Part shown: in pieces, positions 3,074-7,296 of the stretch
Numbering within the stretch: position 1 is the stretch's first letter
How the letters are laid out: every line of letters begins with the position of its first letter
Assembly (NCBI RefSeq): GCF_005280275.1
Contig: NZ_CP040022.1
Location: 310,001 to 374,000, forward strand
Length of the DNA: 64,000 bases
Source: Salinivibrio kushneri
GTDB taxonomy: Bacteria > Pseudomonadota > Gammaproteobacteria > Enterobacterales > Vibrionaceae
Direction: 5' to 3'
The notes under the pieces: generated by a model
Seen by the model: only the letters and a program-made list of their open reading frames with translations
Told to the model about the DNA's origin: nothing
Databases searched by the model: none
Translations under genes and position numbers: made by a program

Positions 3074-3589
3074 ATGACAACGTACGATCCCAGACACACG
3101 ATCAGCAAAAGCCGTTATCCCAACCTGCTCATCTTGTTCGCGCTGTTGTGTCTGATGCTGGTCAGTCATGGTGTTAAAGCGAGACCCATTCTGATCCTTT
3201 ATGGCGATGTCGCTAAGCACTCGTTTACCCGTGAAGAGCTGATGCAGCTGGCTGATCGTACGATTGAAACGAAAACCCCTTGGACGGAAGGTAAACAGGT
3301 TTTTCTCGGCGTGTCAGCACAAAAATTGTTGAAGACGCATGACAAGCAAGGCCATGCATTGAAAGTTCACGCCCTCAATGACTATTGGTCTAAGATACCG
3401 ACTGACGAGATCAATAAGTACAACCCGGTCTTCGCCATAAAGAAAAACGGCGAATGGATGCCTATTCGTGACAAAGGGCCGATTTGGGTTGTCTACCCAT
3501 TATCCGAGTTTAATCAATACGACAATGAGATTTTACATAGCCGCATGGTTTGGCAAGTGAACCGTATCGAAGTATTAGGAAAAGAATAA
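3074..3589 (+). CDS. periplasmic SUOX/molybdopterin-oxidoreductase-fold protein, probable PruR-type pterin sensor
   Basis: A 171-residue protein with a signal peptide (hydrophobic core about residues 16-32, likely cleavage after KA near residue 36) and one small domain related to the molybdopterin-binding domain of the sulfite oxidase family. The segment GPIWVVYPLSEF and the surrounding Trp-rich C-terminus are typical. The mature protein contains no cysteine, so the molybdenum-ligating Cys of true SUOX enzymes is absent. That points to ligand binding rather than catalysis. It is followed 104 bases later by a membrane GGDEF/EAL gene on the same strand. In Agrobacterium a protein of this kind, PruR, binds pterins and controls its partner DcpA. 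Family assignment is fairly secure; the PruR role is inference from domain plus neighbour. RBS AAGGAG is 7 bases from the ATG. Confidence 0.75.
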   Translation: MTTYDPRHTISKSRYPNLLILFALLCLMLVSHGVKARPILILYGDVAKHSFTREELMQLADRTIETKTPWTEGKQVFLGVSAQKLLKTHDKQGHALKVHALNDYWSKIPTDEINKYNPVFAIKKNGEWMPIRDKGPIWVVYPLSEFNQYDNEILHSRMVWQVNRIEVLGKE

Positions 3590-3693
3590 CAACGGACTGA
3601 TGGGCTCAATCCCGGTTTTTGCCTGCACCACGAGCCTCTAGACCAAACCACAAATTTGCTAGGCAACACACAGTAGTAAAGGATTGTAACGGC

Positions 3694-5613
3694 ATGGTCA
3701 AGCGCCCTCTTATTGGTTTCATCATTTTTGTATTTACCACTTTAGCCTTCGCGGCCGGGGCGCTTTACCAGTTTCACAATGCCTACGCACGGCAAGCCCT
3801 TCATACCCAATTGTCCGCATGGGCACTCGCACAAATGGAGCTCGAAACCTTAGAATTCCGTAATGAGCTTGCCTTGTACCTCGCCACCGCATCAGATAAA
3901 CAGTCTCTTATCCTCTCTTATGACATCTTATGGAGTCGCTATGATACGTTTTTAAGTAGCCAAGAGGCCGCGCCCATGCGCCGAACCTTTGATGCTGAGC
4001 CTGTGGTGCAGCGCGCGTTTCGTTTAATTCAGCAACATGAGCAAGCGGTATTGAATGGTGACAATCAGCGCCTAGAAGCCCTTCTGCATGAGATGGATAT
4101 TGTTCTACCGCAAGTGCGTAACCTGATGGTGAATAACTTCACTGGCCCTGCCGCTATCGAGCAGCGCGCGTTTTTACAGCACCAGTTACAAACCATGTAT
4201 GCGGCCATTTTTATACTGATGGTGTTGTTGATACTGTTTGCCTATCGCCTCTACCGTAATAGCAGTAAGCAACAGAAAATGGCATGGCACGACAGTCTTA
4301 CCGGTCTACCCAATCGCAACTATCTGCTGGAATACCTCTACAAAGCCGCTGATAAAAAACAAATTCATACCTTGTTGTTGATCGATGTTCGCCGTTTTAA
4401 AGACATAAACGATCTGATGGGCTATGAGCAAGGCGATCTCGCGCTGACGCAGTTAGCCAATGAGCTGAAAAGCATGTGCTTGCCCTACGGCTATCCTTGC
4501 GCACGGATCAGTAGTAATGAATTTGCGGTTCTCGCATACACCGACAATCGCCACCTGAGCTTTTTTACTCAACCTTTGTGCAACGCGCTGCGAAGCGCGA
4601 TCGACAGTGTCTATCCCGGCCATCGATTAGCGGTAGCCATTGGTGTCGCTAAGAGCCTCGATTTGGATGATAATGTCATCAGGAATCACCGCCAGTTTGC
4701 CAACCAGCTACTTAACAACGCCGATCTCGCCCTGATGAAGGCCAAGAAAGCGCCTGTGACACAAGATAGTGTTGATATCTTCAAAGCGGAGTATGAGCAA
4801 GAAGCCAAGCAACGTCGTCAATTACGCGATGAACTCAAGGCGCACCTCGACGACCCTTATCAAGATGCACTCTATGTATTGTTCCAACCCATGGTGGCGG
4901 CGACGTCAACACGCCTTGGCTGTGAGTGTTTGATTCGTTGGGACCATGCTGAATTTGGCCCTATAAACCCAGCCCTCATCATCAATATCGCCGAAGAATC
5001 AGGCCTGGGTCGGGCACTAGGCGCTTGGCTTTTGCGCCAAGTCTATTTGGCATTAAACACCGAATGGCAGACCATCAATGAACGTATTGATATCGCCATC
5101 AATCTCTCCGATTCATTTTTCAACGAGTCCTTAATTGCCGATGTAATCACTGTCTTTTCCGACCACCCCGAGCAACGTAAGCAACTGATTTTTGAGGTGA
5201 CAGAGACGATGACCATTGAAGATATGGGCCGCTTCAATCTGTTGATGAATCAACTGCGCGATGTCGGTATTCGGATCGCACTGGATGATTTCGGCACCGG
5301 TTGGTCATCCATGTCAGTACTCAGCCATCTGAATTTTGATAAAGTCAAAATTGATCGCTCGTTTGTCACCGGCATGGCCCATACATCGCGCCAGCATGTG
5401 CTGGTAGATACCATTTGTTATATGGCACACCAACTCGGTATTCGCGTGGTCGCCGAAGGCGTCGAAACACAAGAGCAACTCACCAGTCTAAAACAGATGG
5501 GCGTCGATGAATTTCAAGGCTACTTCTTCGCCAAACCGCTATCGGCGCTAGACTTTTATGCGTTCTGCATCGACCACTTAAATCATCAAGACAGGGAGTT
5601 GATTAATGATTAA
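3694..5613 (+). CDS. membrane GGDEF-EAL protein, probable c-di-GMP phosphodiesterase (DcpA-type)
   Basis: I choose the ATG at 3694 (AAAGGA RBS 10 bases upstream; 639 residues) over a TTG at 3619 that has no RBS. Transmembrane helices at about 5-25 and 168-187 enclose a helical periplasmic region of about 140 residues. The GGDEF domain (from HDSLTGLPNRNY, residue 199) is degenerate: the signature reads SSNEF at 273-277, so cyclase activity is unlikely. The EAL domain (about 385-630) keeps every metal and catalytic position: E411 (ECL), N470, E504, D531-D532 (DDFGTG), K552, E588 and Q608. It should hydrolyse c-di-GMP. The preceding gene encodes a periplasmic SUOX-fold protein, the arrangement of PruR-DcpA. 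Its stop overlaps the stop of the convergent gene by 3 bases. Confidence 0.9.
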   Translation: MVKRPLIGFIIFVFTTLAFAAGALYQFHNAYARQALHTQLSAWALAQMELETLEFRNELALYLATASDKQSLILSYDILWSRYDTFLSSQEAAPMRRTFDAEPVVQRAFRLIQQHEQAVLNGDNQRLEALLHEMDIVLPQVRNLMVNNFTGPAAIEQRAFLQHQLQTMYAAIFILMVLLILFAYRLYRNSSKQQKMAWHDSLTGLPNRNYLLEYLYKAADKKQIHTLLLIDVRRFKDINDLMGYEQGDLALTQLANELKSMCLPYGYPCARISSNEFAVLAYTDNRHLSFFTQPLCNALRSAIDSVYPGHRLAVAIGVAKSLDLDDNVIRNHRQFANQLLNNADLALMKAKKAPVTQDSVDIFKAEYEQEAKQRRQLRDELKAHLDDPYQDALYVLFQPMVAATSTRLGCECLIRWDHAEFGPINPALIINIAEESGLGRALGAWLLRQVYLALNTEWQTINERIDIAINLSDSFFNESLIADVITVFSDHPEQRKQLIFEVTETMTIEDMGRFNLLMNQLRDVGIRIALDDFGTGWSSMSVLSHLNFDKVKIDRSFVTGMAHTSRQHVLVDTICYMAHQLGIRVVAEGVETQEQLTSLKQMGVDEFQGYFFAKPLSALDFYAFCIDHLNHQDRELIND

Positions 5614-6968
5614 TCAAACACTTCTTCAATGTCGACCACTTTTGAACGGTTAACCGTAATTTTCCAACGCTGATATACCGTCGGCTGCCCCTTTATCCGC
5701 TGACAACTAACCAGGTTAAATTGATGCCGCTTCTCTACCGAGTCTTTGAGTACCTGACCTTCATTGAGCCGGTATAAGCGCTGACTACCGCGATCCATGA
5801 GGCGAGAAAAAGAGCGGAAGTCAAACTTCCACACGTCACGGGTGGTGTCATAGCCCGACAAAAAACGGGTCGTCTCGAGCTGTGTCTTCACTTTCAGCCT
5901 CACCACCGCTTCTTCTCGTTGACGAAGCTTACCACGCCGCAGTTTTTTCACTTCATCTGGCAGAGCAGCATAATCAATATAATCTAGCCACTCTAACTGC
6001 CGACCTATTTGTCGATTGGATGTAGGATCAATAAAGCGCTTTCGCCACTTGGGACGTCCTTTACGAATCCAGCGCCACAACGCATCACGTAGGTCATCTT
6101 TAAAGATCTCCCGCAACGCATACACACCCGCCATCGCCAACACGAACGATAACGTAATTTCGCCTAAGTATTGGCGTGCACGCACAATAACGGTAGTGAC
6201 AAATAGCATCACAAACGCCGTCGCAGTGGCTTTAGCCAGTTTGTTTAGGTTTTTGCCTAGCGCCTGCGGCACTTGGCGAATCGTCACGGGAAACTCAATC
6301 AAACGGCGCGCAAGGCGCATCTTATTAACCATACGAGTGGGATCGCGGCGCGCTTTATCCGAGTTATAACGGTTGACGAGACGGTGCGCCTCTTCGGCTT
6401 GGCACAATTCAATCAATTGCTGGCGTACATCCTTGTAGACGTTTCCACGCGGCATATGGGCCAATAACGACAGAAAACGTTGCTCCGTTAACCAAGATAA
6501 ATAATTATCTATATTATGGTAATACTTGAGTAGCTTGGTGTTTTGCGGTTTGTAGCGTCGGAGTCGTCGCAAAATCTCCACCGCCATCTCTATCGTGTCT
6601 TCTAATTGCTCTAGCGCCTGTTCATCCTCGAGCCCAGAAACGGATTCAAAAAAATCATGCGTCGCTTTTTCGAGCGATAGCGCATACTGATACGCATAGA
6701 GACTCAAACTAACTCGATATTGTTCGGTTGGCAGTTTGTCACGACTGGCCAGGCGAGCATGTACCAAGGGCAGATGATAACGAGACGTAAAATACGTCCG
6801 ACTATTGGTGAGAACACGGTAATAGAATTCATCTTCAGATAGCACATGCTTACCAAACTTAAGCTCACCAGGGACAAAGAGATAAAACTCAACCTCTTGG
6901 GCACTGACTTCCTCGTTGAGTACAGCCACCCTAACTGATAAGCCCTCATGTTTGTCTACCGTGATCAC
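5610..6968 (-). CDS. conserved hypothetical membrane protein, about 452 residues
   Basis: I do not recognise this protein. I prefer a GTG start at 6968, preceded by AGGAGA with a 6-base gap; an ATG at 7028 would add 20 residues but lacks an RBS. The N-terminal 100 residues are beta-rich (VRVAVLNEEVSAQEVEFYLF), followed by an acidic/helical middle with Arg-rich helices (VEILRRLRRYK). Two hydrophobic helices lie at about 250-285 (TAFVMLFVTTVIV, TLSFVLAMAGVYAL), and a long, very basic cytoplasmic-looking C-terminal part of about 165 residues follows. It is monocistronic and tail-to-tail with the EAL gene. No catalytic motif is apparent. It could be a membrane-associated polysaccharide- or stress-related protein, but that is a guess. 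Confidence 0.7.
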   Translation of the reverse strand: MITVDKHEGLSVRVAVLNEEVSAQEVEFYLFVPGELKFGKHVLSEDEFYYRVLTNSRTYFTSRYHLPLVHARLASRDKLPTEQYRVSLSLYAYQYALSLEKATHDFFESVSGLEDEQALEQLEDTIEMAVEILRRLRRYKPQNTKLLKYYHNIDNYLSWLTEQRFLSLLAHMPRGNVYKDVRQQLIELCQAEEAHRLVNRYNSDKARRDPTRMVNKMRLARRLIEFPVTIRQVPQALGKNLNKLAKATATAFVMLFVTTVIVRARQYLGEITLSFVLAMAGVYALREIFKDDLRDALWRWIRKGRPKWRKRFIDPTSNRQIGRQLEWLDYIDYAALPDEVKKLRRGKLRQREEAVVRLKVKTQLETTRFLSGYDTTRDVWKFDFRSFSRLMDRGSQRLYRLNEGQVLKDSVEKRHQFNLVSCQRIKGQPTVYQRWKITVNRSKVVDIEEVFD

Positions 6969-7296
6969 GACTGCTCTCCTGTGAACGCCAATAAAGTTGC
7001 TACCAAGCGGATCCCCCATCATACCCATGCGGTCAAGGTGTTACGAGTATCGCACATTTATCGCAACACGAGTGAAAAACCGCCATATAGACAGCATTAA
7101 GCTGTTCGTTTTTTAGTCAATCGATCGTGTTGGGGTTGCTTTCCACGACTCACGTGCATTGCCGCGATTGCTTACAAAGAAATTAACGGGGTTATCCACA
7201 GATACAGTAGATAACTTTACCCTCACAGCGCTAAATATAGTTTAGGTCGCACAATATCTAGTATGCATATGACGTCATCCTCTCCCAGATCCTAAA
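6969..7296. other. intergenic region with a single consensus DnaA box
   Basis: No gene is visible in these 328 bases. The 9-mer TTATCCACA at 7192-7200 matches the consensus DnaA box exactly, and a related sequence (AGTTATCTA on the minus strand) lies about 10 bases downstream. The region between them is AT-rich. The box could act in DnaA-dependent regulation or titration or be chance; there is no array of boxes as at an origin. Confidence 0.35.

Follow-up and report, generated by a model that had tools for sequence, protein, structure and literature searches.

A probable pterin-sensing PruR-DcpA-type gene pair with a predicted phosphodiesterase-only output in Salinivibrio kushneri

What does a small secreted protein sense when its gene precedes that of a membrane enzyme of cyclic diguanylate (c-di-GMP) turnover, and in which direction would it drive that enzyme? 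The question is raised by two genes of Salinivibrio kushneri, a halophile related to Vibrio: a pruR homologue and the gene for a DcpA-type membrane protein, located in the window, a stretch of 64,000 nucleotides (C2:310001-374000) from a genome of 3.44 Mb in two contigs. Among named relatives, Salinivibrio siamensis and S. sharmensis came out closest, and in both of them the gene order is conserved and the open reading frames (ORFs) are nearly equal in size. An earlier sequence-only reading had proposed a PruR-DcpA-type module with a phosphodiesterase-only partner, and it proves largely right in substance. The best explanation of the locus, which we consider probable, is a PruR-DcpA-type pterin-sensing pair with phosphodiesterase activity as its only output. 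Judged by its sequence features, the pair belongs to the published PruR-DcpA kind, which includes Vibrio cholerae, and chance is ruled out as an explanation of these features. The pair is laid out as follows.

3074..3589, + strand: pruR homologue (171 residues), secreted, SUOX-fold, predicted by homology to bind pterin, no cysteine in the mature part; pocket N102, Y104, W160
3590..3693, + strand: 104-bp spacer between the genes, in which the + strand shows no site resembling a promoter or terminator
3694..5613, + strand: DcpA-type membrane protein (639 residues) with a first transmembrane segment, a helical periplasmic domain, a second transmembrane segment, a degenerate GGDEF and an intact EAL domain
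3820..3846, + strand: WX7E signature WALAQMELE, residues 43-51 of the 639-residue protein
3937..3939, + strand: Arg82 of a second conserved patch (Y76, W80, S81, R82)
4510..4524, + strand: degenerate GGDEF motif SSNEF
4921..4941, + strand: EAL signature CECLIRW (ExLxR)

The secreted protein and its membrane partner

According to a 2026 review (PMC13259868), PruR proteins are secreted, span about 170 residues, lack the molybdenum-binding cysteine and carry Asn102, Tyr104 and Trp160; their genes lie side by side with those of partners that join a periplasmic domain bearing WX7E, the signature of DcpA-type domains, to a c-di-GMP or kinase output. The window protein has a single hydrophobic stretch (residues 13-31), and because its sole cysteine, residue 26, sits inside this signal stretch, the mature protein is predicted to be cysteine-free, as the sequence-only reading had described this small SUOX-fold protein. 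It matches the Pfam family Oxidored_molyb weakly, at 13.9 bits where the cut-off is 24. A phmmer search of the PDB, up to an E value of 1, returned four distinct sequences, all of them PruR (7kp2, 7rkb, 7kos/7kou and 7kom), with E values from 7.8e-41 for 7kp2, the best, to 7.7e-21; 70 of 132 residues are identical to 7kp2, from V. cholerae. PruR structures also rank first when the predicted model of the window protein is compared by Foldseek and VIA-align, and the VIA alignment to 7kou covers residues 49 to 168, its first and last numbers being equal in the model and in 7kou. Since the numbering agrees, N102, Y104 and W160 correspond to the residues named in the review, and all three are present in the window protein. 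Conservation of this pocket among 79 PruR sequences (the family set defined below) is nearly complete (W160 in 79, N102 in 78, Y104 in 77), and the residues are also kept where the partner GGDEF is dead.

These results bear on the possibility that the secreted protein is a small molybdenum-cofactor (SUOX-type) enzyme, next to which the membrane gene would be a functionally unlinked neighbour. We regard this as extremely improbable: the protein has no cysteine for molybdenum and no separate cysteine donor, which would count against the pair, was found; among solved structures, those closest to it are pterin-binding PruR; PruR is followed by a WX7E partner in 76 of 79 loci, and at 47 of 60 places outside the family the next gene encodes a kinase or a c-di-GMP protein.

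The partner has two hydrophobic windows, best placed at residues 1-19 and 165-183 with about 140 residues between them, and Pfam recognises a GGDEF domain (8.4e-22) and an EAL domain (8.1e-63), both above their cut-offs. The Pfam scan found no kinase domain in it, and thus not the histidine kinase output of PruR-DTB. Its GGDEF motif reads SSNEF, and the list of EAL motifs that we take as the consensus is present throughout (ExLxR, NLS, DDFGTG, KID, EGVE, QG), so that by motif the active GGDEF and active EAL of a dual-function DcpA are not found together. Hydrophobic windows, Pfam and motifs agree with the architecture described in the sequence-only reading. The GGDEF domain keeps the guanine-binding Asn and Asp positions, as placed from PleD.

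Of the 78 partners in the family set (one of them from Yoonia), 76 carry WX7E; R82 is found in 76 of 77, a partner cut short (L056; L numbers denote loci and G numbers genomes) being excluded from column counts. In an alignment of 12 partners that include cyclases, phosphodiesterases and kinases, the conserved columns are W43, E51 and R82, which would be the first candidates for contact with PruR. Together with the PruR-only PDB matches, the pocket residues and the gene pairing, the signature bears out the earlier PruR-DcpA-type reading.

Both genes lie on the same strand with pruR first, an order also kept in relatives. The ORF list opens the partner at TTG 3619, a start that we set aside; translation probably begins at ATG 3694, because the gap before this ATG is kept at 103-104 bp, with small indels, in three close Salinivibrio (L042-L044) and because WX7E then falls at residue 43, near its position in relatives. 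As no promoter-like or terminator-like site was found on the coding strand of the gap, independent regulation of the two genes, which would count against the pair, finds no support, and their co-transcription appears likely.

Partner output among relatives

Of 247 Vibrionaceae genomes searched, 149 carry PruR. The family sample comprised 79 places from 66 of these 149 genomes, plus L002-L004 and the window. Once L049 and L101 (no whole PruR ORF) and L002 and L003 (duplicates of L043 and L044) were dropped, 79 PruR proteins remained with 78 partners, L091 having no partner ORF; Yoonia (L004) contributes one protein and one partner. By motif, the 78 partners consist of 57 with GGDEF only (38 intact, 19 dead), 13 with an EAL and an altered GGDEF (6 GADEF, 5 SSNEF, one of which is cut before EAL, 1 NSNEF and 1 SGNKF), 4 with both motifs intact, 2 with an intact GGDEF and a dead or unrecognisable EAL, 1 cut before GGDEF and 1 kinase.

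In a quick tree of the 79 PruR rows, with branch support from the Shimodaira-Hasegawa-like approximate likelihood ratio test (SH-aLRT), the window falls within a set of 14 rows (SH-aLRT 97), in which 12 partners combine an altered GGDEF with a complete EAL; the other two are L045, with an altered GGDEF and cut before EAL, and L056, cut before GGDEF. The four PruR whose partners have both motifs intact form a set of their own (SH-aLRT 99), as do the four Salinivibrio cyclase-type PruR (SH-aLRT 98); the PruR of cyclase-only partners are not one set, since the Salinivibrio four stand apart from the rest. At the level of sequence, the PruR clade tracks partner output. As for the predicted contact between the two proteins, PruR distance correlates with the distance between periplasmic domains (rho 0.65) rather than with that between GGDEF domains (0.17) across 74 pairs, L056, L102, L096 and L004 being left out. 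Among the Salinivibrio window-type copies, GGDEF is altered in 7 of 7 and EAL is whole in 6, the seventh (L045) being cut short. These motifs support a phosphodiesterase-only output, which the sequence-only reading had already proposed.

The same evidence addresses the proposal that the partner is a LapD-type c-di-GMP receptor, in which a catalytically dead EAL serves as read-out, and not a phosphodiesterase. Its GGDEF is indeed dead by motif, and the family holds one PruR partner with a dead EAL and a second without recognisable EAL motifs (L084, L096); however, the EAL motifs are retained in 12 of the 14 members of the window clade, the other two being cut short, and the score with the LapD model, 122.6, falls far short of the required 1020. 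A receptor of this type is very unlikely here.

A phylum sample in which 62 of 398 genomes carry PruR (some Vibrionaceae included) lists 70 places outside the family, and 60 of these were covered. Judged by motif, the following gene encodes a kinase in 32 cases, GGDEF with EAL in 8, GGDEF without a recognised EAL in 7 and an unclassified protein in 11, and is absent in 2. GGDEF is intact in all eight GGDEF-EAL partners, and the combination of an altered GGDEF with a whole EAL was not found outside Vibrionaceae in these samples.

Several other arrangements were observed. L084 and L096 in the family and L133 outside it mirror the window partner, their GGDEF being intact and their EAL motifs decayed or unrecognisable. 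Partner frames are short in L045 and L056, and no whole PruR frame is present in L049 and L101, which may reflect decay or assembly error. In the phylum sample, L161 and L125 have PruR-like ORFs (328 residues in L161) without a recognised partner. Behind the dead-motif GGDEF-only partners (SGSQF and similar), a convergent gene with EAL motifs follows closely in 17 of the 18 loci with sequence there (the Vibrionaceae loci concerned being L058, L060-L068, L073, L078, L080, L081, L087, L088, L090 and L183-L186); the miss is L102, an outlier, and L071 stops at the contig end. Such a gene follows none of the 38 intact-GGDEF-only pairs. The pattern used was loose and also flagged L045 and L046. The convergent neighbours of dead-GGDEF pairs carry Pfam GGDEF and EAL in 4 of 4 scanned, and in four extended loci this gene adjoins one for a protein of 342-355 residues, which resembles PotD, below cut-off, in the two scanned; NspS-MbaA shows the same arrangement. 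That a dead pterin receptor has been kept next to a receptor of polyamine type hints at cross-talk between the two. In the window itself, a 472-residue ORF on the - strand (5610-7028) is convergent with the partner gene, with which it shares 4 bases; it matches no Pfam family above its cut-off, and S. siamensis and S. sharmensis have a 469-residue ORF at the corresponding position.

Ligand supply, proposed mechanism and a second PruR pair

The search for a pteridine reductase proposed by the sequence-only reading found FolM, 52% identical to E. coli FolM, which scores 320.6 bits against the NCBIfam NF005066 cut-off of 249 and carries TGx3RxG and Yx3K. FolX is also encoded (NF008418, 189.7 bits against a cut-off of 152). 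The folM and folX genes are adjacent on contig C2, and we take them to be genes for tetrahydromonapterin. At E <= 1e-35, FolM occurs in 8 of 8 Salinivibrio genomes and in 60 of the 247 genomes of the family. Home-made tetrahydromonapterin is a possible signal.

In the mechanism that we propose, the ligand of the secreted PruR homologue would be a reduced periplasmic pterin, with tetrahydromonapterin, made with the help of the genome's own FolX and FolM, as the most likely one. Once loaded, PruR would dock on the helical periplasmic domain of the partner, around W43, E51 and R82, and switch on the EAL phosphodiesterase, so that c-di-GMP would fall and motile life would be favoured over attached life. 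This direction of control is expected from homology with Agrobacterium, in which loaded PruR binds the periplasmic domain and favours phosphodiesterase activity, as stated in the review (PMC13259868). The GGDEF domain would no longer make c-di-GMP; its remaining role may be to sense GTP or to dimerise. In another phosphodiesterase, a dead GGDEF reportedly binds GTP and regulates the EAL domain (Christen 2005).

The present analysis itself shows the homology, the pocket residues, the signature, the catalytic motifs, the pairing, FolM with FolX, and a second, cyclase-type pair; the ligand, the contact, the direction of control and the effect on behaviour are inferred from these. Several points weigh against the proposal. 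Pterin binding, the PruR contact and enzyme activity are predictions. The PruR structure model was built from 4 sequences and is of low confidence (predicted local distance difference test score, pLDDT, of 66), and the 104-bp gap exceeds that of most relatives. In the 43 intact-GGDEF pairs, the excess of the periplasmic-domain over the GGDEF correlation is modest, the two being close (0.77 against 0.69; partial correlations 0.51 against 0.25). Outside the family, a simple pattern applied to the first 110 residues recognises WX7E in only 36 of 58 partners; either the signature is less general there or the pattern is too strict. As for the ligand, FolM and PruR are not associated across the 247 Vibrionaceae genomes (odds ratio 1.08, p 0.88; 37 with both, 112 with PruR only, 23 with FolM only, 75 with neither), and phenylalanine hydroxylase, a homologue of which (a Biopterin_H protein) is encoded in the genome, could be the reason for FolM.

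The points on the ligand also favour another source of signal, in which the pair would sense exogenous or oxidised pterins or another pteridine, and not its own tetrahydromonapterin, while FolM and FolX would serve phenylalanine hydroxylase. In the same direction, the seven non-Salinivibrio genomes among the 14 with a window-type PruR have no FolM match at E <= 1e-35, and the review reports V. cholerae as lacking a pteridine reductase and proposes exogenous pterins for it (PMC13259868). Against this stand the presence of FolM in all eight Salinivibrio genomes searched and the requirement for the reductase in Agrobacterium, described in the same source (PMC13259868). We hold an outside signal to be a serious possibility, short of an even chance.

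The other contig of this genome carries a further PruR pair in addition to the predicted phosphodiesterase-only pair of the window; it lay outside the view of the sequence-only reading. The second PruR (C1:1106113-1106640; L001, L040) has a partner of 418 residues with two hydrophobic windows, an intact GGDEF, WX7E and no EAL. Second PruR copies occur in 10 of the 14 genomes with a window-type PruR, compared with 29 of the 135 other PruR genomes (Fisher p 2.5e-4, uncorrected for relatedness, with 66 of the 149 genomes read closely). Eight of the ten are whole (L040, L041, L047, L050, L098, L112, L116 and L119), each with a cyclase-only partner and an intact GGDEF, and two are broken (L049, L101). 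Both pairs are whole in 7 of the 14 genomes, because the window-type partner is cut short in G235 (L056); the window type stands alone in four (G018, G043, G230 and G224). Seven of eight Salinivibrio genomes have the window type, and G038 is without PruR. At position 70, all four Salinivibrio cyclase-type PruR (L040, L041, L047, L050) have Phe where the remaining 75 of the 79 rows have Trp; a ligand difference is possible.

We suggest, tentatively and with more doubt than confidence, that Salinivibrio and V. cholerae-like vibrios divide a dual-function pterin receptor between two pairs with one PruR each, the window pair being phosphodiesterase-only and the C1 pair cyclase-only. Loaded PruR would then turn the window pair on and the C1 pair off, and one pterin would lower c-di-GMP both ways; alternatively, should the two pockets differ in the pterin or redox state that they favour, the pairs would jointly read a pterin ratio. 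The pterin could be home-made by FolX and FolM in Salinivibrio, unlike in V. cholerae. If this is true, the two tasks of a dual-purpose switch have apparently been parted within a single bacterium, as opposing halves. Pterin control of c-di-GMP has been worked out in Agrobacterium, according to the review (PMC13259868), where a single dual enzyme obscures whether PruR activates one activity or silences the other. A halophile with phosphodiesterase-only and cyclase-only PruR pairs would let each arm be tested alone, and Salinivibrio's own tetrahydromonapterin genes would allow home-made and outside signals to be tested. What the locus adds is a predicted phosphodiesterase-only member whose genome also holds a cyclase-only sister pair and has folM and folX side by side.

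Comparison with known systems

The window partner is likened to DcpA of Agrobacterium tumefaciens by described features, not by sequence alignment. Like the A. tumefaciens system (PruR being Atu3496), the Salinivibrio pair has a secreted PruR with the same pocket residues, the two-gene order, a WX7E periplasmic domain on a GGDEF and EAL partner, and a pteridine reductase in the genome. A. tumefaciens DcpA is dual-function, with both activities measured according to the review (PMC13259868), whereas the Salinivibrio GGDEF motif is lost; Salinivibrio also differs in that its reductase matches the FolM equivalog and in its extra cyclase-only PruR pair.

V. cholerae PruR (7KP2) and its kin (L055-L057) share the 14-row PruR clade with the window, 7kp2 being 97% identical to L056, 89% to L057 and 84% to L055, all in the window's set. 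Their partner is likewise a GGDEF-EAL protein, and their genomes hold a further pair, of cyclase type (L098, L112, L116). They differ in the motif, which is GADEF in them (L055, L057; L056 is cut before it) and SSNEF in Salinivibrio, and in the pteridine reductase, which Salinivibrio has and V. cholerae reportedly lacks, according to the review (PMC13259868). V. vulnificus PruR VV2_1280 (7KOM) has the PruR fold and pocket, but the identical L103 sequence (131/131) precedes an intact GGDEF-only partner, and 7KOM is nearer the second Salinivibrio pair than the window pair.

The NspS-MbaA polyamine receptor resembles the PruR-DcpA pair in that a periplasmic binding protein controls a membrane GGDEF-EAL protein; its binding protein and ligand are others, and it probably works alike without being a member. 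The PruR-DTB kinases, of Ruegeria in the review (PMC13259868) and of Yoonia (L004) here, share PruR and a WX7E periplasmic domain with the Salinivibrio pair and differ in their histidine kinase output, a kinase motif being found in 32 of 60 pairs outside the family.
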